35,873 nt of DNA, from positions 1-35,873 of the IMG/VR virus record IMGVR_UViG_3300046734_000143. One strand, given 5' to 3'. The notes under the pieces are model-generated. The model saw only the letters and a list, made by a program, of their open reading frames with translations. It did no database searches and was not told the DNA's origin. Shown here piece by piece: positions 1-35,873 of the stretch (its first letter is position 1; every line of letters starts with the position of its first letter). The DNA comes from a virus. Made by a program: the position numbers and the translations under genes.

Positions 1-127
1 AAAACTCGTCTTCACACTTAGTAGGAGTAGTTCCGTCCCCGCCGCGAGTACAAAAACCTTCAGAGTTAATATTACCTTGGGCTATAGTTGCGTCATCGCC
101 GCTGTACTTCCCCGGCTCAGAAAAACA
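1..127. repeat. Terminal direct repeat, left copy (contig circularisation overlap)
   Basis: Positions 1-127 are identical to 35747-35873. An exact 127-base overlap at the two ends of a contig is the usual result of assembling a circular or circularly permuted genome with k-mer 127. It lies inside an open reading frame that continues in frame across the join, so it is more likely an assembly overlap than a biological terminal repeat. Confidence 0.95.
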
Positions 128-2158
128 AGGGTTACCGACTTTAATGCAATCGTTGTCTGGATCGCCGCCTCTGCGTACCCAGCCCGGATCACATTCTTCT
201 GGTGTAGTAGTCTTATCGTCAACACAACCGTCTTCATCTGCGGTTGGGTCATTAGGATCGTAAGTTAAGTTTTTTTCTTGACATAGTTCTTCTGGTGTAG
301 TAGTGTTAGGATCAGAACAGTCCCCACTTAAAGGCTCTTCTTGTCCTTCTAAATCACTTCCTTCAGGACATACGCATTTTTCTCCGTCCCACTTACCGTC
401 CCCTATGCACTGCGGGTCCTGTATTTCTGGACAACCGTCTGTTGTTTCCTTTGGCCCTATTATTCCACCAGTTAACTCTTGACCTTGTTGACCTACAGAG
501 GCGTCACAATCAACATAACCCAGATCAGTACACTTTTCTTGGTTGTTCTCAAAGTACTCTCTTTCTATACAGTTTTCGTCGTCTGATGTGGTGTAAGACG
601 CAAGTATGTTAGTTACTTCTTCTTCTATCTCTGCCCAGATGATTCCAGCGGTTACAGAGCCTAAGACGCCTTTGAGCCAATCTAGTACATCGTCTGCGGT
701 AGCATCCTCAATACCACTAATAGCTTCTTCCCACTTGTCTTTTGCCCAAGTGCCTAAGTCTTCTAAAATCTGACCTACTGTACACTCTTGTTTTCCGTCA
801 GCGCCACAGGACTCGTTACCATCTATAATGTCACCGATAGTATGGCCTACGGTTTTAATAGCGTTCTCAAAGTCTCTGTACGTACCTATGTCAACGACAC
901 CGGGAGGCAAAGGAATATTAGGTAGAGGAAGGCCACGGGTATTAAAGCTTACACAGTCTTTCCAACAGGGCGTGGGACTTTCTGCGGTTCCACAAGTTGT
1001 TCCGTCCCCCATATCTTGACATTCTGGCGGTATGCCAGCGTCTAGTATAGCTTTTCCTATTTTTTTGATACAGTCTATCGGACTGCCTACACACTCCGTA
1101 AACTTACCTTCTAGTTCGTCATAGAGGCCTCTTGCTGTATTAGCGACACCTTCGCCTACTTCTTCAACGTAATCTTTAAAGGATTTTTCTACACACTCTG
1201 GGAGACTTGCGTTCTCAGGCTTTGCACAAAGATCGTCTGTCCCACCGCCTCCACCAGAGCCAAGAGGAATACAGTTTCCGTATTCGTCTTCTTCGCCCTC
1301 TATTGTACCGCCACCAAAAGGAAGTTGAATGAAACACTTTTTACCTCCACCGCCTTCGTTTTCTCCATCGTCTGTTATACACTCTCCAGAAGCATTTGTT
1401 TTCCCCGGAACAGACCCTTTCAGGCACTCACCACCAACAGTAAATTGGCAATCACCGTCTTCGTCAATTGTCCCTGCGCGTTGGTTTTCGTCTGTGCAAT
1501 CAGACCCTTTTACTGGACCCGTGTTTTCAACTGCCTGAACACTCCAATCACTACAGTTGCTGTAACCAATTTGACACAGGGCGTTAGATAGTACGTTGTT
1601 GCCTTGGAATCTGTCGTTGTTTACTGCGGAATCAAAAATTTCTTTTATAGCTTCGTCAGAGTATCCGTTATCTTTCAGTATTTGTCTTATGTCTGCGTTT
1701 GATGTGGTTGCGTCTAGTTCACCAAGACCTTCTTCACCTCCACCACCAGAGCCTGTGGTGTCGCCTGTAATACCGGAGTAATAATCGTCCCAGCCGTCCA
1801 TGTCTGCTAAGTCACTAACATCGACAGCTTGTAAATCTTCTAGGGTTATTTCATCGCTTAAATATTTATTATATGCCTCAAGCCACTCAGTAGCTTGCTC
1901 TTGACGATTAATGCGGTCTATATCGTCAGCATCTAAACCCTCAATGCCTTCTAAAAACAGAGACATAAAGTCTAGAAGGCCGGGGTCTATGCTTTCCCAA
2001 ATAGTTTCTACTTCATCAAGAGAAAGATTAGGAATGTCTAACTCACTTGGGTTAATACCCGTTCCTATAAACGGATCAAAACCAAAGGTAGCAATAAAGT
2101 TTTCTAAAAACTCTGCCAAATTCCAGTAAGCATTACTAAGTCCACCTCGTTGCGCCAT
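1..2158 (-). CDS. Giant cysteine-rich virion/adhesion-like protein, N-terminal part (gene continues at the right edge of the window)
   Basis: The leftward frame starts at ATG 2158 (begins MAQRGGLSNAYWNLAEFLEN), two bases after the stop of the holin gene, and has no stop down to position 1. Joined through the 127-base overlap it continues to the TGA at 34614, giving 3,291 nt or 1,096 residues. The first ~200 residues are acidic, helical-looking and cysteine-poor. A Gly-rich linker follows, then cysteine-rich segments with many Asp/Gly/Asn loops (for example DPNDPTADEDG) like calcium-binding or EGF/thrombospondin-type modules. A hydrophobic stretch (GVLGSVTAGIIW) lies about halfway along this part. 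Its place between holin and tail genes suggests a virion or host-contact protein. I recognise no family; function is inferred from context. Confidence 0.85.
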   Translation of the reverse strand, partial: MAQRGGLSNAYWNLAEFLENFIATFGFDPFIGTGINPSELDIPNLSLDEVETIWESIDPGLLDFMSLFLEGIEGLDADDIDRINRQEQATEWLEAYNKYLSDEITLEDLQAVDVSDLADMDGWDDYYSGITGDTTGSGGGGEEGLGELDATTSNADIRQILKDNGYSDEAIKEIFDSAVNNDRFQGNNVLSNALCQIGYSNCSDWSVQAVENTGPVKGSDCTDENQRAGTIDEDGDCQFTVGGECLKGSVPGKTNASGECITDDGENEGGGGKKCFIQLPFGGGTIEGEEDEYGNCIPLGSGGGGGTDDLCAKPENASLPECVEKSFKDYVEEVGEGVANTARGLYDELEGKFTECVGSPIDCIKKIGKAILDAGIPPECQDMGDGTTCGTAESPTPCWKDCVSFNTRGLPLPNIPLPPGVVDIGTYRDFENAIKTVGHTIGDIIDGNESCGADGKQECTVGQILEDLGTWAKDKWEEAISGIEDATADDVLDWLKGVLGSVTAGIIWAEIEEEVTNILASYTTSDDENCIEREYFENNQEKCTDLGYVDCDASVGQQGQELTGGIIGPKETTDGCPEIQDPQCIGDGKWDGEKCVCPEGSDLEGQEEPLSGDCSDPNTTTPEELCQEKNLTYDPNDPTADEDGCVDDKTTTPEECDPGWVRRGGDPDNDCIKVGNPCFSEPGKYSGDDATIAQGNINSEGFCTRGGDGTTPTKCEDEF

Positions 2159-2160
2159 AG

Positions 2161-2538
2161 TTACTTACCGCCCTTCATCTGCATCAGCTTGTCAGCACCA
2201 CGTATGCCAAAGCTGGCAGTCACGGCTACGTAAAGCAAGTACTGGTAGTAGTCAGGTAGCTTGTCTAGCTCCGAAAAAGCTAAACCTACCCGTTGCATAA
2301 TACTCAAGTCATCCATAGCGACTCCGTAACATACGGCTAACAGGGGCATCGACAGCACCACAGTAAACCACTCGTCTTTCCACGAGGTGGCACTAGCCGC
2401 CGCCATCTCTTGTTCCCACGTAGCGGTGTTTCTAATGACTTCCATCTTTGCTACGTGTTTTGCTTGTGACTGCTCGTGACGGTTGTTTAACCAGTTCTTA
2501 GCAAGTCCAGCAATAGGACCAATTAGTGCAGTCCACAT
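2161..2538 (-). CDS. Holin of the 3TM (GTA-type) family
   Basis: 125 residues, starting MWTALIGPIAGLAKNWL, with a charged middle, then the conserved SWKDEWFTVVLSMPLLAVCYG and a C-terminal hydrophobic segment ending GIRGADKLMQMKGGK. This pattern (N-terminal amphipathic helix, W-K-D-E-W-F, two later membrane segments, GIRG near the end) matches the phage/gene-transfer-agent three-TM holin family (PF11351). Holins open the inner membrane so that endolysin reaches the wall; here the endolysin candidate is the M15 peptidase at 12473-12814. The gene follows a second small membrane gene by one base, forming a lysis cluster in the late arm. Confidence 0.75.
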   Translation of the reverse strand: MWTALIGPIAGLAKNWLNNRHEQSQAKHVAKMEVIRNTATWEQEMAAASATSWKDEWFTVVLSMPLLAVCYGVAMDDLSIMQRVGLAFSELDKLPDYYQYLLYVAVTASFGIRGADKLMQMKGGK

Positions 2539-3444: not shown

Positions 3445-5343
3445 TTACCCCTTAATAATAAGCTTGGTTGCTGATATGGCTGTTCCTGCAAATACTTCTG
3501 GCTCGGCGGCAGTCAAGCCAAGTGAGCCGTCAGCCTGTACATAATACTTTTGCCCTGCGGTTAAACTGCTCTGGGCGTCATCAACAGACCCTACGATCTG
3601 AATAGTTGCTGTCGCTGAATTAGAATAAGCCGCATCAGAAATTCCAATGTAGTTTTCAGAGGTTAGGTTTGTGTTTGAAAAAGCGGCTTGAAACACAACA
3701 GCAGTGCCGTAATGAGAATTGCCAGCGTCTTTATAAGCTATGACTACCTTCTGAGCGTTAGCATCGTAGGTAGCTGAAATATAATCAGTCCCCGCACTTT
3801 CAAATACAACCGGCGTGGTAAAGCTAATAGATGTGCCACTGACAGTTCCAACAACAACATAGCCATGATCAGAATTACCCTCGTCCCTATAAGCTATGAC
3901 TACCTTCTGGGCGTTAGCATCGTAAGCGGATGCCTTGGTTCCACTAAACGTGCTGTTAAATACTACTGGTGTACCAAAACTAATAGACGTACCACTAACA
4001 GTTCCAACAACAGCAGTGCCAGCATCAGAATTACCATTATCTTTATAACCTATAACTACCTTCTGAGCGTTGGAATCATAAGAAATTGAGAAATGACTAC
4101 TATACGCACTTTCAAATACCACTTCAGTACCAAAACTAATAGACGTACCACTAACAGTTCCAACAATAGCGGTTCCGTAACTAGAATTTGCACCATCTCT
4201 ATAAGCTATCACTACTTTCTGGGCGTTGGCATCATAAGCGATCTTCTTTTCGCGAGTACTCCCGCTGTTAAATATTGTGGTTGTTCCGAAACTAATAGAT
4301 GTTCCACTAACGGTTCCAACAAAAGCACCACCATTACCAGTAGGGTCGAACTGAAAAGCTATTACTACCTTCTGGGCGTTAGAGTCATAGGCAATTGATA
4401 TTTCTGAAGATGATGCACTTTCAAATACTACTGGTGTGCCAAAGCTAATTGATGTACCGCTAACGGTTCCAACAACAACAGTGCCATAATAATTATTACC
4501 AACGTCTTGATAAGCTATCACTACCTTTTGAGCGTTAGCATCATAAGCTATCGCTAAATGTTGAACATTCGTATTTTCAAATACTACTGGTGTGCCAAAG
4601 CTGATAGATGTGCCACTAACTGTGCCGACAACAGCCGTGCCATAATCAGAATTATCATCGTCTTCATACGTTATAATTATCTTTTGGGCGTTGGCATCAT
4701 AAACGCTTGCGGTATACTTAGTAGCGCCGCTTTCAAATACTGCTGGTGTACCAAGCGTCTGTGAGCCAGAAATCCCCGAAACAGCACTTACAGTGCCGTC
4801 ACTGTTTACGATAACCGTGTCACCGTTTGCTAAGGCTCCTGATGCTGTAGCGGTTACAGTAGGAGCCGCAGATAAATCTGTAATTTGACTTTGAGTAATT
4901 GATAAAGCCGCTTGATGTTGAGTAACAGAAGACTGTGTAATGTTTGCGTCAGGTACGTCAGCCCACGTTACAACAGCAGTAAGATCGTTTACTTCTGCAA
5001 TGCCCGGAATAGCACCAGCAACGTAATCAATAACTGCCGCATTAGTCGGTATTTGATTATCTACATCTGAAAAAGTCTCAGAAGATAGAGTAACTGCTCC
5101 AGCGTCAAGCTGAGAGAATGTAATACTAAGACCAGAAAGATTAACTGTACCTGTAGCAGTAAGGCCATCAAAAGTAGCTGTACCAGTAAACGTAGGACTA
5201 GCGAGGTCTGCCTTAGTTGCTACCGCAGTTTGAATTGCGTTAAATTCAGTATCAAACTCTGAGCCACGAATAACCTTATTAGCGTCACCCTGCGGCAAAG
5301 TGTCCTTAGCAGTAAAATTTGTAGATTTTACGTAATCAGTCAT
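3445..5343 (-). CDS. Tail fibre / receptor-binding protein with seven 52-residue repeats
   Basis: 632 residues. Residues 1-110 look like a podovirus tail-fibre N-terminus (FTAKDTLPQGDANKVIRGSE, then FDTEFNAIQTAVATKADLAS, TFTGTATFDGLTATGTVNLS). Residues ~203-560 are seven tandem repeats of about 52 residues with the core YDANAQKVVIAY-x-D-x-GNS-x-YGT and linker VGTVSGTSISFGTPVVF. The C-terminus (YYVQADGSLGLTAAEPEVFAGTAIS) resembles the 'reached this value on average, plus attribute' end domain of marine phage fibres. Seven beta-rich repeats of this length suggest a seven-bladed beta-propeller, a common carbohydrate-binding fold (inference). An AGGAT Shine-Dalgarno precedes ATG 5343; a terminator separates it from the capsid gene. 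Confidence 0.8.
   Translation of the reverse strand: MTDYVKSTNFTAKDTLPQGDANKVIRGSEFDTEFNAIQTAVATKADLASPTFTGTATFDGLTATGTVNLSGLSITFSQLDAGAVTLSSETFSDVDNQIPTNAAVIDYVAGAIPGIAEVNDLTAVVTWADVPDANITQSSVTQHQAALSITQSQITDLSAAPTVTATASGALANGDTVIVNSDGTVSAVSGISGSQTLGTPAVFESGATKYTASVYDANAQKIIITYEDDDNSDYGTAVVGTVSGTSISFGTPVVFENTNVQHLAIAYDANAQKVVIAYQDVGNNYYGTVVVGTVSGTSISFGTPVVFESASSSEISIAYDSNAQKVVIAFQFDPTGNGGAFVGTVSGTSISFGTTTIFNSGSTREKKIAYDANAQKVVIAYRDGANSSYGTAIVGTVSGTSISFGTEVVFESAYSSHFSISYDSNAQKVVIGYKDNGNSDAGTAVVGTVSGTSISFGTPVVFNSTFSGTKASAYDANAQKVVIAYRDEGNSDHGYVVVGTVSGTSISFTTPVVFESAGTDYISATYDANAQKVVIAYKDAGNSHYGTAVVFQAAFSNTNLTSENYIGISDAAYSNSATATIQIVGSVDDAQSSLTAGQKYYVQADGSLGLTAAEPEVFAGTAISATKLIIKG
3667..4737 (-). 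repeat. Seven tandem ~156 bp repeats inside the tail-fibre gene
   Basis: A repeat boundary reading 'tttcaaatac' or 'ttaaatac/ttaaatatt' recurs about every 156 bases (near 4731, 4573, 4420, 4267, 4110, 3955 and 3800). Each unit encodes one 52-residue repeat. Linker and core codons are nearly constant, while the stretches after VFES/VFNS and after the YKD/YRD core vary. The constant segments would support unequal crossing over and repeat-number change. Confidence 0.9.
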
Positions 5344-11865: not shown

Positions 11866-12234
11866 TTAATCAGTCCAGCCTGAATCACCTTCGTCGTATA
11901 CTCCGTCATCGTTAGTATCGCAGAATCTTTGCCACGCCTGCATGTTAAACGAGTAACCTTCGCTCCACGGTACATAAGCCAAGCACCACTCGTGAGATCC
12001 TATTTCCACACCATCAGTAGGAGAAGGAACATAATCTCTGTCAGTGTTAGCTTCTAAGGGAGTAAAGAACACGGCCCCTGTGTTGTACGTTCTTTTAGAA
12101 AACACTGGTTGTCTTGATACAAAAATGTTTTCTCTTTCTTCCAGAGTGTACGTAGAACCATCGTCGTAGTTGATAACAGTTTGACCTAGGACTGCTGATG
12201 AAAACAAAAAAAGAGACGCTAATAGATATTTCAT
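11866..12234 (-). CDS. Secreted acidic protein with EF-hand-like loop
   Basis: 122 residues with a clear signal peptide (MKYLLASLFLFSSAVLG, probable cleavage near residue 17, before QTVINYDDG). The mature part is aromatic and acidic and ends with a calcium-loop-like DTNDDGVYDEGD preceded by a cysteine; a second cysteine lies about 24 residues earlier (HEWCLAYVPW), so a periplasmic disulfide is possible. It overlaps the glutaredoxin gene by four bases. A secreted protein in the late operon could act at the host envelope (superinfection exclusion, lysis aid) or on the virion. I know no family. Confidence 0.7.
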   Translation of the reverse strand: MKYLLASLFLFSSAVLGQTVINYDDGSTYTLEERENIFVSRQPVFSKRTYNTGAVFFTPLEANTDRDYVPSPTDGVEIGSHEWCLAYVPWSEGYSFNMQAWQRFCDTNDDGVYDEGDSGWTD

Positions 12235-12470
12235 TTAGTTATTTCTCCTGAGTCTTTAATTGAGTTGATTGCTTCGTTAAAGTCTTTAGATCCACCAAAG
12301 TGGTAGAATATTTGTGGTATAGACCGCTTTCCTGTCATGGTTTCTACTAAGTCCCAACCAGCTTGACCGGGAGGTATCTCAACGTACTTGTACGCCATGT
12401 TGAGTTCTTTGAGGGTTTTCTTGGTTCTTACACAAGCAGGACACCAATCAGCCCCTAGAAAAGTAATCAT
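12231..12470 (-). CDS. Glutaredoxin
   Basis: 79 residues with the active site WCPACVRTKKTL (Cys 10 and Cys 13), the cis-proline SIPQIF (Pro 52) and the closing F-x-GGSKDF glutathione-site region. This is a complete minimal glutaredoxin. Phage glutaredoxins usually supply electrons to ribonucleotide reductase; here, however, the gene is in the late arm between endolysin and a secreted protein, far from the RNR gene of the early arm. It starts two bases after the M15 peptidase stop. Confidence 0.9.
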   Translation of the reverse strand: MITFLGADWCPACVRTKKTLKELNMAYKYVEIPPGQAGWDLVETMTGKRSIPQIFYHFGGSKDFNEAINSIKDSGEITK

Positions 12471-26459: not shown

Positions 26460-26626
26460 CCCTCTGACTTACCTACGTCCTCTGGCTTGTCTTTCGGGTC
26501 ATGGGGCGTAGGTATTCCCTGCGCTTGCATCTTCTTGACACGCTCCTTTGACTTCTGACACATAGTGTGGTAGTCGTGGGGTGTGTAAGACACACTGTGG
26601 TTATCGTTGTTGTTCTTCATCTTCAC
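26435..26626 (-). CDS. Small protein at the end of the late arm
   Basis: 63 residues from GTG 26626 with AGGAGG eight bases upstream (ATG 26620 also possible). The sequence is charged and His-rich (NNNDNHSVSYTPHDYHTMCQ, KSKERVKKMQAQGIPTPHDP). It overlaps the end of the preceding virion gene by 26 bases in another frame and is convergent with the lipoprotein gene, with 25 bases of antisense overlap. Short MCQ-x-SKERVKK-type proteins occur at the end of structural clusters of marine phages; function unknown. Confidence 0.6.
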   Translation of the reverse strand: MKMKNNNDNHSVSYTPHDYHTMCQKSKERVKKMQAQGIPTPHDPKDKPEDVGKSEGYSVFFIS

Positions 26627-28388
26627 CTAACATTCCTCCTGTTAACATTCCAGCCTTACCTACGTTTTTACCTACGTTGATATAATCTTGTAGGTTTGCC
26701 TCGCCCCTGTAGTCACGCATAACTCTTGCTTGGTACTGTACGTTGCTTTCGCCTTTTTGCTTTGGCATACCTGTTATCTCTTCTATACGAGCAACGCTTT
26801 CTTCAGGCCTTGGTACTCCCTTTGTCTCTGGTGATTTGGTTCCAGACTTAAAAGAGTAAATAGGGGTAGCGTTTAACAGTGCGTTTCCTCCGGGCGGGTT
26901 CATACCAAACATATCGTGACCATCAGAAATCATCGTATATATCGTGTCGTTTTTAGTGTCAATAGCTCCGACAATGTTAACTGAACCTAAGTCTTGCGCT
27001 GAAGATGCGTATGCCTCTTGAAAGGCGTACACTCCATTTCCTTTGTCGTTCAACGTTGCTTTCGGTGCGGCATTAAAGTAATCCAACACCTGTTGTTGTT
27101 TCTCGTTTATTTTTTGCCCCTTTTTCTCCCGTATCTTTAAACGCCAGTATCTGTTAAGCAACACAGACCTAGGTTCATCAGGTAGCTCTCCGTTTCTGAT
27201 AGCAAGACGTAGTTTATCTGAGTGGGCATGTTTAGCCACAGAAACAAACTGCGTATAAAACTCAAGAGGATCTGCGTTAGGTAAGGCCTCTTTTGCAGAT
27301 CCTATTATCCTAGAACTAGCCAAAGAAGAAATAGTGGCGGGTGATGTTGCTTTAGCTACGCCTGTTGCTTCTCCTTGTAGAGCTTCCCCTGTTTCTGGCC
27401 TGCGTATAACTAATGATGTTTTCCCCGGATCACTGGAAGCACCATGAACTTTTACGAGGTGATTAGTAAAAGTGTCTACAACGTTTTTTGGCACATCGTC
27501 GGTATAAGACGTAAGACCTTCCTTAACACGTTCCATATTATTTACATCAGTCCAATCTTGAGCGTATCGCTGTACCTCTACAGTGTTACCTACGACAGTA
27601 TCAAGAGGGGCAGATGTTTCTCCCCGGCGTTGCGTCTCTATAAACGCACTAGCCATTGCGTTGCCCCTTTGCTCGCCTGCTGTTTCCCGTGACCCTCCTG
27701 TTTGGGAGTACTCAAGTCTTCTGGCTGGTCCTGTTCCGACAACTCTGCGCTGTTCTTGTCCTGATGGAGTAAACCCTTGTTTTATTGCTTGAGGGACGTT
27801 AGGAACAGCCGCAGACGCCGTAGCCCTCAATTTACTGAGGGGGTTTGGAGAGTCATAAAATCCCGGTATTTTAGTAGGGGTGTTGTCAGCCACAGCACCA
27901 AGAGATTGGCTTAACGCTCCTCCTCCGGTTCTTGTCAAACCCATGTCCATCAACGATCCCGCAACAGCGGCGGCTCTTGGGTTCTGTTGTGCTAGCTGTA
28001 GTGCTTGCTGACCAACGCCTGTGTTCATTAGCCGTTCTGTCACGCCTAAGTTCGGAATCAAAGTATTAAACAAGCCCGTAACAGGCGAGATTGCTGTGTT
28101 TATATTACCAGCAGTATTTAAAGCGGTGCTCGTTAATAGGTCTTTGGCGGCTTCGCCGTATTGCCCCCGCTGTAAATTAGGAACTACTCTATCGGCGTAC
28201 ATCCTGCCTTGCTGTACTTGTTCTCTAGCGTCTTTAAACTCTGAGTCTGTTGCTCTAGGAACAGCTAAAGCAGTATTTGTCGCAAGCTCCCGTGCTTTAG
28301 ACACAGCCTCTTGACTGTACCTACGCTCAGTTTGCCTAGCTCTCTGCCTGTACTGCCTACGTAAGTCGTATAGATTTTCTTTACTCAT
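26601..28388 (-). CDS. Internal virion / ejection protein candidate (C)
   Basis: 595 residues. The first ~60 are strongly basic and helical (LYDLRRQYRQRARQTERRYS). A middle with predicted amphipathic/hydrophobic segments (LLTSTALNTAGNINTAISPV) follows, and the C-terminal half looks globular (SVLLNRYWRLKIREKKGQKI, VNIVGAIDTKNDTIYTMISD). The end GKAGMLTGGMLGEDEEQQR has a Gly-rich helix. Position at the end of the structural arm, size and sequence style match ejection proteins of podoviruses. No catalytic motif is evident. It overlaps the preceding gene by eight bases. Confidence 0.6.
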   Translation of the reverse strand: MSKENLYDLRRQYRQRARQTERRYSQEAVSKARELATNTALAVPRATDSEFKDAREQVQQGRMYADRVVPNLQRGQYGEAAKDLLTSTALNTAGNINTAISPVTGLFNTLIPNLGVTERLMNTGVGQQALQLAQQNPRAAAVAGSLMDMGLTRTGGGALSQSLGAVADNTPTKIPGFYDSPNPLSKLRATASAAVPNVPQAIKQGFTPSGQEQRRVVGTGPARRLEYSQTGGSRETAGEQRGNAMASAFIETQRRGETSAPLDTVVGNTVEVQRYAQDWTDVNNMERVKEGLTSYTDDVPKNVVDTFTNHLVKVHGASSDPGKTSLVIRRPETGEALQGEATGVAKATSPATISSLASSRIIGSAKEALPNADPLEFYTQFVSVAKHAHSDKLRLAIRNGELPDEPRSVLLNRYWRLKIREKKGQKINEKQQQVLDYFNAAPKATLNDKGNGVYAFQEAYASSAQDLGSVNIVGAIDTKNDTIYTMISDGHDMFGMNPPGGNALLNATPIYSFKSGTKSPETKGVPRPEESVARIEEITGMPKQKGESNVQYQARVMRDYRGEANLQDYINVGKNVGKAGMLTGGMLGEDEEQQR

Positions 28389-29994
28389 CTTCAGTAGACT
28401 CCTGCTCCCCTCTGAGTAAATCTAATAGAACGAGTCGGTGAGCCTTTAGTTCAAACAGTTTGTCAGACTCTTTGGTGTTTCTAATAAGCTTGTTTAAACC
28501 GGAGAGTGTTTGAGCGTATAAATCTAGCCTGTTTTGTTTTGACATTAGCCTTAAGGCCCCGTAGACACCAAGTCCACCAGCACCAGCAACAGCTACAGAA
28601 GCTAGTCCTCCCGCCCCCTCAACAAGAGTTCTTCCTGTGAAATACAAAGACCCAAGAGTTGACGGAAGAAGTGCCGCATCTTTTAATCTTCGTGCTACGA
28701 TACCAAGTGTAGTGTTAGCCTCTTTGTTTCTTTTGTTGTTCATACGATCACGAGCAAGAAAGGCGTGGTACTGCCGGTCTAACAACTGACGGGCATCGTC
28801 TCCGGGCGTTAACTCCTTTAGCTTATCGTTTAAAATTGTACGCACAACACGAGCCGCTTTAGACCTTGCCGTTGATGATGTGGGGTCTAAAACTCCTGTA
28901 TAAGCCTCGTTTAGTAAGTCATCAAACTCCTGTCTTATTTTAAGCAAGTCCATAGCAGAAACAGTGTTTTTAGTACCGGCTTCAGAAATCAGCTTCATAG
29001 CGTCTTCAGCTAAGTTAGAAACGATAGTCTGAGCCTCTGGCGTAATTCCTCTGTACCCTGAAGACTTTGTGTAATCTTCTATCATTTGAGACATTTCTAA
29101 CGCCAAGTCATTTTTGTTTGTTCTAGGGTTTCCTGCCGACACAATAAACTGTCGCAGTTTCTTAGACTGCTCAACTATGTGATTTTGAACCGCCCTCATG
29201 TTATGGTGATAAGAGGCTTTAGGGTCTACGTCTTTTATTCCCTCAAGTATTCCTGTGATGTTCAGTGTTTCCCTATCAGGAACGTAGGTTTCTCTACCAA
29301 GAAAACCTGTGCGTTGTGTTCTCTCGTTTGGCTTTAAATCTTCAGGAGCCAACAACTGAGTTATTCCCTGCCTACGTTGTTTAAATCTGTAGTGGCTAGC
29401 CTTGCTTTCGCTTTTTCTAGCAGGGGCTTCAAACATTTGCATATCGGGGCGTGGGCTAAACAAAACAGAAACGTCGATGACATTTTCAAAGGTTGCCGCC
29501 GCCGCAGGATTCTGCTGTTTAAATTCTTCGTAAGCCTCTAGGCCCTTTTGTGCCATTTCTGCGGCACTTTTAAATTGCTCGCTGTCTTTAACACTATTAA
29601 ATAATTCCTCTGCTCCCTGACGGATAGAGTTAGGCAAAGATGTTATGGCAAAGTCAGTAATTATATCACCAGCAGTCAAGCCAGCCGTAGCGATAGCAGT
29701 GGTGACTACTTGAGATGCGCTAGGCTCGTAGCCACCAATGCGTAAGGCGTCAGTTCTTTCTTTGTACTCCTCAACCCCACGTTCAATAGCTTCTGGAACA
29801 CGCTCCATAAAAGCAGTCATTCTTTCGGCTTCTTCTTGAGCGCGTCCTTTTTCTATCTCAACCCACTGGTCACCCACCAGCCCATACTTTTGTCCTGTGT
29901 GTCTAACAGAGGCGGTCTGCATTTCAGTCCACTGATTTGTGTTGGGGTCCAGATAATATCTTTGGCCTGTTTCTGGGTTAGTAGCTGTTTGCAT
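28381..29994 (-). CDS. Internal virion / ejection protein candidate (B)
   Basis: 537 residues. The N-terminal ~50 residues hold two short W-containing repeats (YYLDPNTNQWTEM and YGLVGDQWVEI) around GQ-Y strands. Long helices follow, with hydrophobic stretches near 90-115 (ASQVVTTAIATAGLTAGDII) and near 455-480 (GGLASVAVAGAGGLGVYGAL) that could insert in the host membrane. The rest is helical and charged. It lies one base from the upstream gene and overlaps the next by eight. Likely part of the internal core released with DNA; family not recognised. Confidence 0.6.
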   Translation of the reverse strand: MQTATNPETGQRYYLDPNTNQWTEMQTASVRHTGQKYGLVGDQWVEIEKGRAQEEAERMTAFMERVPEAIERGVEEYKERTDALRIGGYEPSASQVVTTAIATAGLTAGDIITDFAITSLPNSIRQGAEELFNSVKDSEQFKSAAEMAQKGLEAYEEFKQQNPAAAATFENVIDVSVLFSPRPDMQMFEAPARKSESKASHYRFKQRRQGITQLLAPEDLKPNERTQRTGFLGRETYVPDRETLNITGILEGIKDVDPKASYHHNMRAVQNHIVEQSKKLRQFIVSAGNPRTNKNDLALEMSQMIEDYTKSSGYRGITPEAQTIVSNLAEDAMKLISEAGTKNTVSAMDLLKIRQEFDDLLNEAYTGVLDPTSSTARSKAARVVRTILNDKLKELTPGDDARQLLDRQYHAFLARDRMNNKRNKEANTTLGIVARRLKDAALLPSTLGSLYFTGRTLVEGAGGLASVAVAGAGGLGVYGALRLMSKQNRLDLYAQTLSGLNKLIRNTKESDKLFELKAHRLVLLDLLRGEQESTEDE

Positions 29995-29995
29995 A

Positions 29996-31321
29996 TTAAA
30001 CCCCGTCTAAAGTTGCTCCAGCAGGAAGCGGAGGAAGTCCCTCTACTTCGACGCTTGGAGCAGGAGTAGTTTCTTCTAAAGTCGGTCTTGACTTTAACGC
30101 AGGAATGCGATAAAAAATCAAAGGGTCTTTACCTTCGTCGGCTCTTATGTCTGCTGTTACGTCTTCAAACAAACCTAATGTTGTGTCTGCGTCATCCTTT
30201 AATATTTTTAAGATGTTTCTCAAAGCTGTTGCAGTCATAGTAATGTCACCAGCAGACGCTAAAGTTGCAAACTCTCTATCAGCGTCTGACAAGCCGGTCC
30301 CTGCACCAAAATCTTTAATTATCCCTGCTACCCGTGGAGCCGCAAGAGCTAAAAAAGTTTGGGTATTGGATAATTTAGGATCTTCAGGGTCTAAACCAAC
30401 AGCCGCCGCAATAGCAGAACGCGCACTACGAACAAACAACTCAGCGTTAGCCATCTTGCCCGTAATCATTTCGTCTATATTAGGCATAACCTCTGTTATG
30501 TTGTTCATCATGCGGGTTGCATCGTTAGCGGCAGTTGCTAAATCGTCGTAACGCTTAACACCAGCTTCCGCAAGTTTTTCGCTAGTATAATTAGCAACTG
30601 TTTCTACTTGCTGTCTATTAGGCGCTCTACGTAACCCAAGTTCACTGGCTCTTACAAATCTACCAGAATCAGGGTCCATAACTCTACCACGAGAGTCAAC
30701 TTCCAGCATCATTTCTTCCCGCCCATCAGCAGTAACAAAGGATTTTAGTTCGGCTTCAGATCCTTCTAACAACTTGGTAAAGGCTTCGTCCGACATGTTA
30801 GCCATTGTTTCGTCGTTCCACTCTAGGCCCACATTTTTAGCGAGAGCTTTTCGTCCGGGTATTCCCCGCAGTCGTATGACTTCCTGTCGTTCAAATGATC
30901 TTAAGTCTTTCTGGATTGCTCTCAACGTTTCTTCATCAGTTGTGTTTAAAGCGCGTTCAGCCAAGTCTTCCATTCCTAGTTTATTAGCGGAATCCACAAT
31001 AGTTTCTTGAAGGGTTTGAAGATTAGTTGCCGCTGTTTGTTCTTGCATACGAGCACGGGCTTGTTGTGCTAGTTGCATAGCTTCTTCGACTTTACCCTGT
31101 GCTAACAGTTGTTGTGCCGCCGCAGACATTTGTTCTGCTGTAGAAGTTGGAGACATAGCCGTGCTATAGATATTAGCCAACTCTTCTTTTCTTTTTTCAG
31201 CATCTCTGTTTAGCGCCATAATACCCGGAATCTGACCAATATTCTGGCCCACCTGAGAATATTCCTCTCTGCGAGAAGGATCAAGCATACCACGGAGCAT
31301 CATTTGTGAAAATCTAGCCAT
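29996..31321 (-). CDS. Internal virion / ejection protein candidate (A)
   Basis: 441 residues, mainly helical and Ala/Gln/Glu-rich (EQMSAAAQQLLAQGKVEEAM, QLAQQARARMQEQTAATN). The C-terminal region LALAAPRVAGIIKDFGAGTG followed by LSDADREFA and RNILKILKDDAD is a motif I recall from internal/core proteins of many marine podoviruses and some tailed phages, with a Pro-rich end (LEETTPAPSVEVEGLPPLPA). It probably forms part of the internal core or ejection apparatus. Confidence 0.65.
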   Translation of the reverse strand: MARFSQMMLRGMLDPSRREEYSQVGQNIGQIPGIMALNRDAEKRKEELANIYSTAMSPTSTAEQMSAAAQQLLAQGKVEEAMQLAQQARARMQEQTAATNLQTLQETIVDSANKLGMEDLAERALNTTDEETLRAIQKDLRSFERQEVIRLRGIPGRKALAKNVGLEWNDETMANMSDEAFTKLLEGSEAELKSFVTADGREEMMLEVDSRGRVMDPDSGRFVRASELGLRRAPNRQQVETVANYTSEKLAEAGVKRYDDLATAANDATRMMNNITEVMPNIDEMITGKMANAELFVRSARSAIAAAVGLDPEDPKLSNTQTFLALAAPRVAGIIKDFGAGTGLSDADREFATLASAGDITMTATALRNILKILKDDADTTLGLFEDVTADIRADEGKDPLIFYRIPALKSRPTLEETTPAPSVEVEGLPPLPAGATLDGV

Positions 31322-31332
31322 CTTAATTCCCC

Positions 31333-32400
31333 TTAAAACAGATCAAACAGCGGTATTTTGTACTCCCCACCGTCACCCCTGACCGGACCAAGCAGTCCAC
31401 CCAAGAGTCCAGTACCAAGGCCACCCAACAGATTAGCTCGTGCTTGTTCTGCTATCAACCTAGCATCAAGACCACTCATCATTGTCTCACCGTACTGCCC
31501 TGCACCAAACAACTGTCCTGCTTGGGCTTGTGATTGATACGGTTGCATGGCTTGCTGTAGTTGCATCAATTGCGTCTGCGGTACGTAAGCACCACCCAGA
31601 GAAGCCATAGCTAAGTTCTGTTGTGCCGCACGTTGTGCCAAGTCTGTTTGAGACAGTTGACTACCCATTCCGGTAAATTCTTGAGCCAGTGCCGCTTCTT
31701 GTGCTTGTTCTGCTTGTGCTTGAGTCATCGCTTGAAGCATCGCAGTGTTCCTAGCTTCTGCTTGCGCTTTTTCCATTGCCATTGCTTCTGGAGTACCACC
31801 AAACATGGAAGTACGGACACCTAAGCGCCCCTGTGAAGCCAAACGCTCTTCTAGCGCCAAACGCTGTCGTTCTTCTTCAGGAGTCTGTGTTGCTCTAATA
31901 CGATCGTAAATCGCAGACTCACGCGAGGCCATGTCATTGGTTCTAAGGCGGCTCAATATGTCTTTGCCTAAACCAAACGATGTGGTCGCGGCAGTTTGCG
32001 CGTCAAGTTGACCGTAAGGAGTAGCGCCTAGTTGCGTCTGAGCACGAGTTAGCATTGCGTTCTGAAGGGTTGTTTCTGCAGGAGACAAAGTGAACGCTGT
32101 AGATGTACCGCCTGTCTCTTCTCCCGTAACAGGATCAACCGTTCGTTTTGCCCCAAACCCGCTTCCCGCTATTGTAGAAGCAACAGTAAACGGCCTGAAC
32201 TGAGACATAGACAGAGCATCTTGTGCTAAACCAATAGCACCCGGAACTTTAATCTTTTCTCCAGTTACAGGGTCTGTTACTTCTGTACCTACTAAAGACT
32301 GCTCACCAATGTCGCCTAGTCTTTTGTACTCTTCAGCACTAAGTAAGCCACCCCCGACAACACCGCCTATCCCTAATAGAGCTTTTAACCAATCTGGCAT
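31333..32400 (-). CDS. Internal/tail-associated virion protein, Ala/Gln-rich
   Basis: 355 residues. N-terminal hydrophobic segment (WLKALLGIGGVVGGGLLSAE), then a region with two DPVTGE motifs (residues ~43 and ~88), a long Ala/Gln/Glu-rich helical part (QAEARNTAMLQAMTQAQAEQ) and a Gly/Leu-rich C-terminal end (LLGGLGTGLLGGLLGPVRG). This layout is typical of small ejection or core proteins located between tail and internal proteins of podoviruses (comparable in place to T7 gp14 or P22 gp7). No enzyme motif is seen. Confidence 0.6.
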   Translation of the reverse strand: MPDWLKALLGIGGVVGGGLLSAEEYKRLGDIGEQSLVGTEVTDPVTGEKIKVPGAIGLAQDALSMSQFRPFTVASTIAGSGFGAKRTVDPVTGEETGGTSTAFTLSPAETTLQNAMLTRAQTQLGATPYGQLDAQTAATTSFGLGKDILSRLRTNDMASRESAIYDRIRATQTPEEERQRLALEERLASQGRLGVRTSMFGGTPEAMAMEKAQAEARNTAMLQAMTQAQAEQAQEAALAQEFTGMGSQLSQTDLAQRAAQQNLAMASLGGAYVPQTQLMQLQQAMQPYQSQAQAGQLFGAGQYGETMMSGLDARLIAEQARANLLGGLGTGLLGGLLGPVRGDGGEYKIPLFDLF

Positions 32401-33969: not shown

Positions 33970-34617
33970 CTACGGGGTATAAAAGATAGTTTCTTCAGGA
34001 TGCTTCTGTGCGTCCATAGCGATAGCATCAGACAGATACTTATCAGCAATAGCAAAGTACTCTGGAGTCGATGTACCGCCTGTCTCACCACGCTCACGGG
34101 CCAATAGAGCTACTGACATGTGAATCACAGGCTGACTAGGAATAGCCAGCGTGTCAAAGTCAGCACTTAAGGCTACGTTCCTTATGACGCTCTTGACCTT
34201 GATAGAGTACACACCGTCAGGCTTAGGGTACACATCAATCTGTGCGTCACCGGAGCCGTCTATGCCACTGAACGTGTAGTACTGAGGTTTGCCAGAGGTG
34301 GGCGTGTTGACAAAAAACTTATCGTCAAACCAAGTCTGCGGTCTGTACTCCATTACAAGATTAGACGTATCGTTAATGATATTAAGAATCTTGCCTTGAT
34401 CTTGGTAGCCCGTAAGCGAGTACGTGTAGTCATCAGCCGCCGTGGTCAGCGTAAGGGTAGACCTAAGATTAGACCAATCCCAAGCGTTTTCCACGAGTTG
34501 CTTTGCGTCATTGATAAAGTCACCAACCATAGTACTGTACGTATTAGCGCTAACGGTAGTTACTTCGTCCTCACGTAAACGTCTAAGAACATTGTTTACT
34601 ATGTCTAAATAGGTCAT
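33970..34617 (-). CDS. Tail tubular / adaptor protein (T7 gp11-like candidate)
   Basis: 215 residues: TYLDIVNNVLRRLREDEVTT, then GDFINDAKQLVENAWDWSNL (a helix typical of the portal-docking adaptor), strands TYSLTGYQDQGKILNIINDT, PQYYTFSGIDGSGDAQIDVY and the C-terminal helix HMSVALLARERGETGG. This sequence of features is the podovirus adaptor (gatekeeper) that binds under the portal. ATG overlaps the stop of the giant cysteine-rich gene (ATGA). Eight bases separate it from the gp12-like gene. Confidence 0.8.
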   Translation of the reverse strand: MTYLDIVNNVLRRLREDEVTTVSANTYSTMVGDFINDAKQLVENAWDWSNLRSTLTLTTAADDYTYSLTGYQDQGKILNIINDTSNLVMEYRPQTWFDDKFFVNTPTSGKPQYYTFSGIDGSGDAQIDVYPKPDGVYSIKVKSVIRNVALSADFDTLAIPSQPVIHMSVALLARERGETGGTSTPEYFAIADKYLSDAIAMDAQKHPEETIFYTP

Positions 34618-35873
34618 ACCATACCCTCAAACAAACTTCTTTTAATTAGGCTGTCTAGTTCTGCCATATAGTCTTTTTGTGGTGCTGGAGGAGCCGCTGG
34701 CAAAGGCTGGGGCGTGTAATCTATGCCAGCAATGAAAGGACTAAAGGCTCCCATACCACCACCACCGCCGCCACCGCCGCCACCGCCGGTACTACCTCCA
34801 CCGCCGCCTCCACCGGGACATTCTTCAGGATTAGCCGCCGCATACTCAGCACAGCTACAGTCGTTACATGTTGTTGTAATACAGTTACCTTCCGCGTCCA
34901 TTGATTGACCTTCAGGACACACAGTACAATCGGGGTAATCTGTGGCTCCGTTTTCACAGGCTGTTTCTTCACACTCGTCTCTAGTGGGAGCAAACGTACC
35001 ATTAGGACACTCTATCCAGCCGCACTCTAAAGGATTAGCCGTGGCATACTCTATATCATTACAGGGTGTAGGCTGGTTACAGTCTGCCAACGTAGGAGCC
35101 ATAGTCCCGTCATCACACTCTACCCAACCACAGATTAAAGCATTGGCAGGATCAGTGCAATCTATTCCTTCACACATGTCAGTTTCAGAATTTAAACTCT
35201 GACCTGAAGGACACGTAACGCAGTTGTTCTCAGGATCAATAGCACCGTTGGCGCAGTCGTTAAACACACACTCGCCTTCTTGTCCAGCGTTTGTGGCGTA
35301 AGGGTTGTCACAGATCTGTGTTGTGCTACATCGTTCATCATCTGGATAATCACGACAGTAATCAGTCAGAGTCAAACACTTACCAGTTTCTTGGTCAGGA
35401 ATGAAATTAGCTTTACACTGACACCCACCTTGACCATCTGGTTCAGAGTTAGGATCATCACAGCTTGTTTCTCCAGAAACACACTCACCACGGTCATTGA
35501 ACACACCTTCCCCGTTTTCACCACAAGGCTTTCCTGAATCAAGATAAGGCTTATTGCAGTCTCCGTCTTCGTGGAAGGATGGAATAGTAAGGTAACCCGG
35601 ACACTGAACACAATCAGGAGCTACCGCATTGTTGTGGGGACACTCTGTTGTATTATTGTCTTGAGTACAAACGGTGTCGCCTTGTTTAATACTGTAATTT
35701 TCTACGCAGTCTGGGCCACAGTCTCCGTCTTCACCGTAATTAGTAGAAAACTCGTCTTCACACTTAGTAGGAGTAGTTCCGTCCCCGCCGCGAGTACAAA
35801 AACCTTCAGAGTTAATATTACCTTGGGCTATAGTTGCGTCATCGCCGCTGTACTTCCCCGGCTCAGAAAAACA
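34614..35873 (-). CDS. Giant cysteine-rich virion/adhesion-like protein, C-terminal part (gene begins at 2158)
   Basis: This is the C-terminal third of the 1,096-residue protein, entering from the right edge in frame (unique sequence ends at 35746). The last 296 residues hold about 29 cysteines. A module is duplicated: ICGWVECDDGTMAPTLADC and ECGWIECPNGTFAPTRDEC. A second short module recurs as C-x2-C-P-x-GQS. After the last cysteine comes a poly-glycine stretch (about 34750-34816) and a short C-terminal tail with Pro-rich and helical parts ending FEGMV. The stop overlaps the next gene's ATG (ATGA at 34614-34617), so the two are translationally coupled. No start codon exists in this frame upstream of 35504, so this is not a separate gene. 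Confidence 0.85.
   Translation of the reverse strand, partial: CFSEPGKYSGDDATIAQGNINSEGFCTRGGDGTTPTKCEDEFSTNYGEDGDCGPDCVENYSIKQGDTVCTQDNNTTECPHNNAVAPDCVQCPGYLTIPSFHEDGDCNKPYLDSGKPCGENGEGVFNDRGECVSGETSCDDPNSEPDGQGGCQCKANFIPDQETGKCLTLTDYCRDYPDDERCSTTQICDNPYATNAGQEGECVFNDCANGAIDPENNCVTCPSGQSLNSETDMCEGIDCTDPANALICGWVECDDGTMAPTLADCNQPTPCNDIEYATANPLECGWIECPNGTFAPTRDECEETACENGATDYPDCTVCPEGQSMDAEGNCITTTCNDCSCAEYAAANPEECPGGGGGGGSTGGGGGGGGGGGMGAFSPFIAGIDYTPQPLPAAPPAPQKDYMAELDSLIKRSLFEGMV
35747..35873. repeat. Terminal direct repeat, right copy
   Basis: Exact second copy of positions 1-127. Removing it gives a 35,746 bp circle. The leftward cysteine-rich frame is open through this copy (no stop between 35504 and the window edge) and matches in phase the frame that begins at 2158. 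Confidence 0.95.

Follow-up and report, generated by a model that had tools for sequence, protein, structure and literature searches.

The window (35,873 nt, the whole stretch of DNA that was analysed) belongs to a podovirus-type phage whose replication genes (endonuclease I, a family A polymerase, and a primase-helicase) are of the T7 type. Its first 127 bases recur as an exact terminal repeat (1–127 = 35747–35873), and the contig is circular, joined inside a gene. When one copy of the repeat is removed, a minus-strand frame opens with the ATG at 2158 and stays open across the join until a TGA closes it at 34614, giving 3,291 nt and 1,096 aa with only one stop, the terminal one. The N-terminal and central part of the protein (residues 1–719) is encoded at 1–2158 (minus strand), and the C-terminal part, with 419 codons including a 42-codon overlap, at 34614–35873 (minus strand). 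An initial annotation had proposed that a cysteine-rich frame of ~1,096 residues crosses the join and would be missed by linear annotation; the frame is stop-free, and linear gene calling does divide it, into one product of 719 aa and another of 296 or 419 aa. In IMG/VR relatives, the region at the join is encoded without a break, in full-length ORFs of 1,089–1,092 aa (L001–L004) and in homologous ORFs of 884–1,339 aa (L005, L006, L007, L013, and L015), and in L003, L007, and L013 the ORF is distant from the contig ends. Homologues split into two genes, which would have spoken against the proposal, were looked for among the relatives, and single unbroken ORFs were found instead. Because relatives have the same protein as a single unbroken ORF, it is confirmed that the join is not an artefact and that the gene is real and intact.

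On one side of the gene lies a 125-aa membrane-type protein (2161–2538, minus strand; phrog_2524), holin-like by position and the usual upstream neighbour; on the other lies a tail adaptor of the SU10_adaptor family (33970–34617, minus strand), whose start overlaps the end of the gene in an ATGA, so that its earlier placement between lysis and tail genes holds. We use the term slot for this location, i.e., the gene between the small membrane protein and the adaptor that overlaps the adaptor start, and the window gene occupies it by both position and overlap. The order membrane protein, slot, adaptor, nozzle recurs in most relatives. Portal, capsid, and nozzle have distant homologues in HMO-2011-type and Pf-WMP3-type phages. 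The window also encodes four internal-virion-type proteins, assigned by position (26601–32400, minus strand), with 0 Cys in 1,928 residues; a 632-aa fibre-like protein (3445–5343, minus strand) with repeated AYDANAQKVVIAY units and no Cys; and a Peptidase M15 protein (PF08291; 12473–12814, minus strand), likely the endolysin, which sits beside the terminase and not beside the holin-like gene.

Cysteine makes up 6.4% of the slot protein (70 Cys, which lie from residue 195 to residue 1029), and the pI is 4.05. Residues 1–194 contain zero Cys, and the cysteine-poor head of ~200 residues described earlier is thus real. The best conserved core spans residues ~327–530 (569–1180, minus strand), in which C380, C389, W399, D401, C402, and P413 are invariant or nearly so. 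At the C-terminus, a Gly/Pro-rich linker and a conserved tail, both characteristic of the slot family, together occupy 34617–34814 (minus strand; recognised by the tail HMM and a structure model); the tail ends in QKDYMAELDSLIKRSLFEGMV, and its last segment is predicted to be a helix (residues 402–415 of the C-terminal fragment, at low confidence). Elsewhere in the family, the cysteine-rich genes of L005, L006, and L014 carry near-identical tandem repeats (VQVECPEGTPKAGQMVDNLEDCGTTT) that differ in copy number and appear to be a recent expansion of a two-cysteine module, and in L016 (2076–3775) the reading frame changes late in the cysteine-rich gene, close to the Gly-rich linker, and the normal tail follows in another frame, through either a sequencing error or a real frameshift.

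Comparison of the slot protein with Pfam gave no family at E ≤ 1, and comparison with PHROGs and NCBIfam gave no match. The EGF/thrombospondin-like modules of the initial annotation are therefore not borne out: no EGF-like domain is recognized by profile in the window protein, cEGF appears in 1/27 relatives (E = 3.7e-4 in Pfam), and thrombospondin type 1 and type 3 repeats are not supported, in view of the lack of a Pfam match and of a DxDxDG calcium loop. The calcium binding proposed along with them is rejected for the window copy, which has no such loop, though many relatives carry one. DUF4214, as judged by profile search, is absent from the window protein and present in 2/27 cysteine-rich relatives. 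The pattern of cysteine co-occurrence, read from sequence alone, favours neighbouring pairs in several loops (the EGF pattern being 1-3, 2-4, 5-6). AlphaFold models of the two halves of the protein are too weak to assign a fold (pLDDT 60.6 and 53.3), and fold searches with both returned nothing at E ≤ 0.001; the top-ranked, non-significant matches of the C-terminal half are to disulfide modules (of LRP2, Pfs25, CD320, and BCMA) and are only suggestive. A PDB profile search yielded only Gly-linker artefacts (e.g., scFv linkers). With the whole protein, the tail peptide, or a cysteine-poor slot protein as query, tblastn found no relative among cultured phages; the genome collection held no relative of the slot protein, and the 27-row alignment offers no stretch conserved enough for a scan of that collection. 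The one nozzle relative in the collection (56%; L057, JAERSU010000097.1) comes from an Oceanospirillaceae MAG, where its contig is short (3.6 kb), and this hint is too weak for a host claim.

To see what else occupies the slot, we gathered 80 further contigs by the conserved nozzle protein, rather than by the cysteine-rich protein, and inspected the reading frame that precedes the adaptor gene. In contigs with enough sequence, a long ORF nearly always occupies the slot. The encoded proteins are either cysteine-rich (24–84 Cys) or cysteine-poor (0–10 Cys), with no intermediates among the complete proteins so scored; two genomes with tandem genes, the first of which has 20 or 22 Cys, fall outside this scheme. 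In these two genomes (L105, 1810–5348, and L221, 2763–6253), the tandem slot-type genes have 22 + 4 and 20 + 6 Cys, respectively, an even number in each gene. In three other genomes (L001, 3631–4287; L022, 9471–10127; L060, 2111–2761), the cysteine-rich gene is separated from the adaptor by one further gene, whose product (~218 aa) has no Cys. Its C-terminal tail (DYVKLLRSRLINSLFKDMI) is similar, and it has a DUF4214-like segment that is seen by eye and not reported by Pfam; it appears to be a second slot protein in tandem. Among 11 mostly cysteine-poor slot proteins, DUF4214 was found in 8, and RTX, collagen, and PASTA in one each.

A tail HMM built solely from proteins with >2% cysteine also picks up cysteine-poor slot proteins, precisely at the C-terminal end. 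The E values go down to 7.5e-13 for bodies with ≤2 Cys and from 7.5e-13 to ~4e-6 for those with 0–4 Cys; the HMM misses one group of cysteine-poor slot proteins that have other tail types. Identity to the window protein is ~25–47% in the slot for most relatives, compared with 57–95% for the nozzle, and the slot protein thus evolves much faster than its neighbours. The window gene is best read as encoding the cysteine-rich form of a modular protein with a fixed slot in an uncultured podovirus clade. By direct sequence evidence, the slot and its gene order are conserved and the middle and N-terminal modules are swapped between phages, with the C-terminal tail common to the cysteine-rich and many of the cysteine-poor versions.

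The cysteines of the slot protein evolve in pairs. Their number is even in 27/27 distinct complete members (other residues are even in about one half) and, in the larger set, in 52/52 of the distinct complete, Cys-containing slot proteins, compared with 43/90 for the nozzle protein of the same contigs. In 26 disjoint pairs of slot proteins that differ in Cys number, all differences are even, for which the chance is 1.5e-8 if the pairs are independent. Terminase and portal also lean toward even numbers (90/125 and 121/147, respectively), which we take as the shared ancestry of nearly constant counts; slot counts span 2–84. Within the alignment, Cys columns come and go as neighbouring pairs (195-202, 221-237, 451-459, and 884-898, with phi 1.0), residues 311–410 have an even number in 30/30 sequences, and most sub-segments are even; the segment 525–620 is even in only 23/28, as expected if the alignment boundaries cut pairs, though this is not proof. 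Exported proteins with disulfide bonds are recognised to have a bias toward even cysteine numbers (PMC7678975). The other structural genes of the window have 0.25% Cys. From the even counts and the gain and loss of neighbouring pairs, the slot protein is very probably disulfide-rich, in agreement with the disulfide cysteines of the initial annotation, and because its cysteines evolve in pairs, all 70 would be expected to form 35 disulfides.

The window also encodes a dithiol glutaredoxin (12231–12470, minus strand; WCPAC; Pfam PF00462, E = 1.2e-9), located on the structural arm, where it adjoins the terminase and precedes the slot gene by ~10 kb, with the class II ribonucleotide reductase (RNR) far off on the other arm. 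Among records in which both the terminase region and the slot are readable, glutaredoxin is present in 11/12 genomes with a cysteine-rich slot versus 1/16 with a cysteine-poor one (Fisher p ~6e-6; a phylogeny-corrected test, for which there are only 2–3 supported independent switches, is not significant). For G004, G025, G046, G080, and G094, the count relies on a partial reading of the slot; G092, whose contig ends inside the terminase gene, and G009, whose contig has no terminase gene, were left out. The exceptions are G080/L248, a 15 kb contig with a cysteine-rich slot in which glutaredoxin was not detected, and G048, which has glutaredoxin and a slot protein without Cys. On the terminase tree, the slot type switches ~6 times, and in the supported independent pairs glutaredoxin mostly changes in the same direction; the clearest sister pair is G006 (cysteine-poor, without glutaredoxin) versus G007 (cysteine-rich, with glutaredoxin).

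In other marine phages, glutaredoxin has been explained by RNR or by the host redox state (PMC6918029, PMC6775973). Here, an explanation by RNR is not favoured because RNR occurs in both slot groups, in every searched record of >26 kb. The co-occurrence of glutaredoxin with the cysteine-rich slot suggests a virus-encoded helper for disulfide-locked particles. Next to the glutaredoxin gene lies one for a 122-aa protein (11866–12234, minus strand) with an apparent signal peptide, two Cys, and an EF-hand-like DTNDDGVYDEGD end; this gene tracks glutaredoxin only loosely (20/41 with and 14/80 without) and follows it less closely than the slot type does.

Taken as a whole, we read the slot protein as a virion-surface arm that is anchored through its C-terminal tail, stays reduced while the particle is assembled, and is locked by oxidation once the cell has lysed, a reading whose chances of being right or wrong we judge to be evenly balanced. 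The protein would be made in the cytoplasm in reduced form from a late operon, and the phage glutaredoxin may keep or edit its thiols during assembly; the disulfides could then close on or after lysis, a plausible time for oxidation, to leave a rigid, protease-resistant arm (on the tail or neck) whose variable loops would meet the host or the environment. The Gly-rich linker followed by a short conserved, predicted helix-forming tail suggests attachment at the C-terminus, and the collagen, RTX, and DUF4214 alternatives in the slot point to the outside of the particle. Such exoprotein-type modules in the same slot of other phages fit a surface or host-contact role, the latter having been proposed for the protein at the outset. 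The bacterial cytoplasm is strongly reducing and no signal peptide is apparent in the slot protein, so the disulfides would need a late step, which counts against our reading.

If the disulfides were instead formed within the infected cytoplasm, the phage glutaredoxin would have to run toward oxidation, using GSSG, while particles are being assembled, like the vaccinia G4L pathway in the eukaryotic cytosol; we consider this unlikely, given the reducing conditions just mentioned and given that, of the components of a poxvirus-type pathway, the virus-encoded glutaredoxin is present and an Erv1/ALR sulfhydryl oxidase is not (Pfam), nor is a Dsb or second thioredoxin-fold gene, among the scanned window proteins. 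In its favour, glutaredoxin goes with the cysteine-rich slot type, its gene neighbours the terminase on the structural arm rather than RNR, and the virion disulfides that vaccinia makes in the cytoplasm depend on the G4L glutaredoxin (PMC9282662). A late protein that is released at lysis and acts outside the virion, e.g., as a soluble decoy or an antimicrobial-like factor, would account for the fast evolution (relative to the nozzle) and the modular loops; this, too, seems improbable for a gene whose slot is nearly always filled and overlaps the adaptor start codon, and for a protein whose conserved tail is common to otherwise unrelated bodies.

The location of the gene within the structural module, adjoining the adaptor, would also suit an internal protein that is ejected with the DNA and oxidised only in the host periplasm. 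The ejected virion RNA polymerase of N4 is reported to be without Cys, and it has been argued that ejected proteins avoid cysteine, as disulfides would block ejection (PMC3915230). The four Cys-free internal-position proteins here match this argument, and because 35 disulfides are expected in the slot protein and disulfides are argued to block ejection, it is very unlikely to be ejected; the collagen-, RTX-, and DUF4214-type alternatives in the slot also weigh against it. Binding of metal (Zn or Fe-S) by the cysteines in place of disulfides, for which there is a precedent in the four-Cys Fe-S cluster that phage tail hub proteins can hold (PMC10276861) and which would likewise give even counts from four-Cys sites, is highly improbable in the face of counts that step by two and not by four (e.g., 42, 44, 46, 54, 58, 62, and 70), the coupling of Cys in neighbouring pairs, and the presence of CxxC in only 88/1,530 successive Cys spacings.

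The exchangeable slot protein and the glutaredoxin that goes with its cysteine-rich version are new relative to the initial annotation. The cytoplasm in which proteins of lytic phages fold is reducing, and Cys is very scarce in the remaining structural proteins of this phage. A protein family that occupies an exchangeable virion-module slot and has up to 84 Cys, always in even number, constitutes a natural test of how phages make disulfide-rich structures. Through its link to the slot, glutaredoxin, which the literature accounts for via RNR (PMC6918029, PMC6775973), gains a possible second function that can be tested, and the C-terminal tail, found on unrelated bodies, may serve more generally as the signal by which surface arms dock in this common clade of aquatic podoviruses.

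With EGF-like, LDL-A, and TNFR-type modules, the slot protein shares serial small cysteine loops and an acidic, Asp/Asn/Gly-rich composition; it differs in being without a significant profile or fold match and in a coupling that suggests neighbour-to-neighbour pairing. Like the vaccinia G4L pathway (PMC9282662), the window would tie a virus-encoded dithiol glutaredoxin to virion-protein disulfides, but here no Erv1-type oxidase was found, the host is bacterial, and the link is genomic only. It is a tentative and rather doubtful proposal that the glutaredoxin is dedicated to the morphogenesis of a disulfide-locked virion protein, is not an RNR reductant, and represents an independently evolved phage counterpart of the poxvirus redox pathway for virion disulfides. 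In cobaviruses and RCA phages, glutaredoxin is likewise present in some members only and together with class II RNR (PMC6775973, PMC6918029), but there the gene is listed with replication genes and explained by RNR, whereas here it lies in the structural arm and tracks the slot protein, not RNR. The HMO-2011-type and Pf-WMP3-type podoviruses resemble the window in the distant homologues noted above, but the stretches read of HMO-2011 and HTVC115P have no annotated protein of such length in the interval from capsid to adaptor. The collagen-like, RTX, and DUF4214 slot proteins of the sister phages have few or no Cys and another body, but they have the same gene position, the same or a similar C-terminal tail, and the Gly-rich linker.
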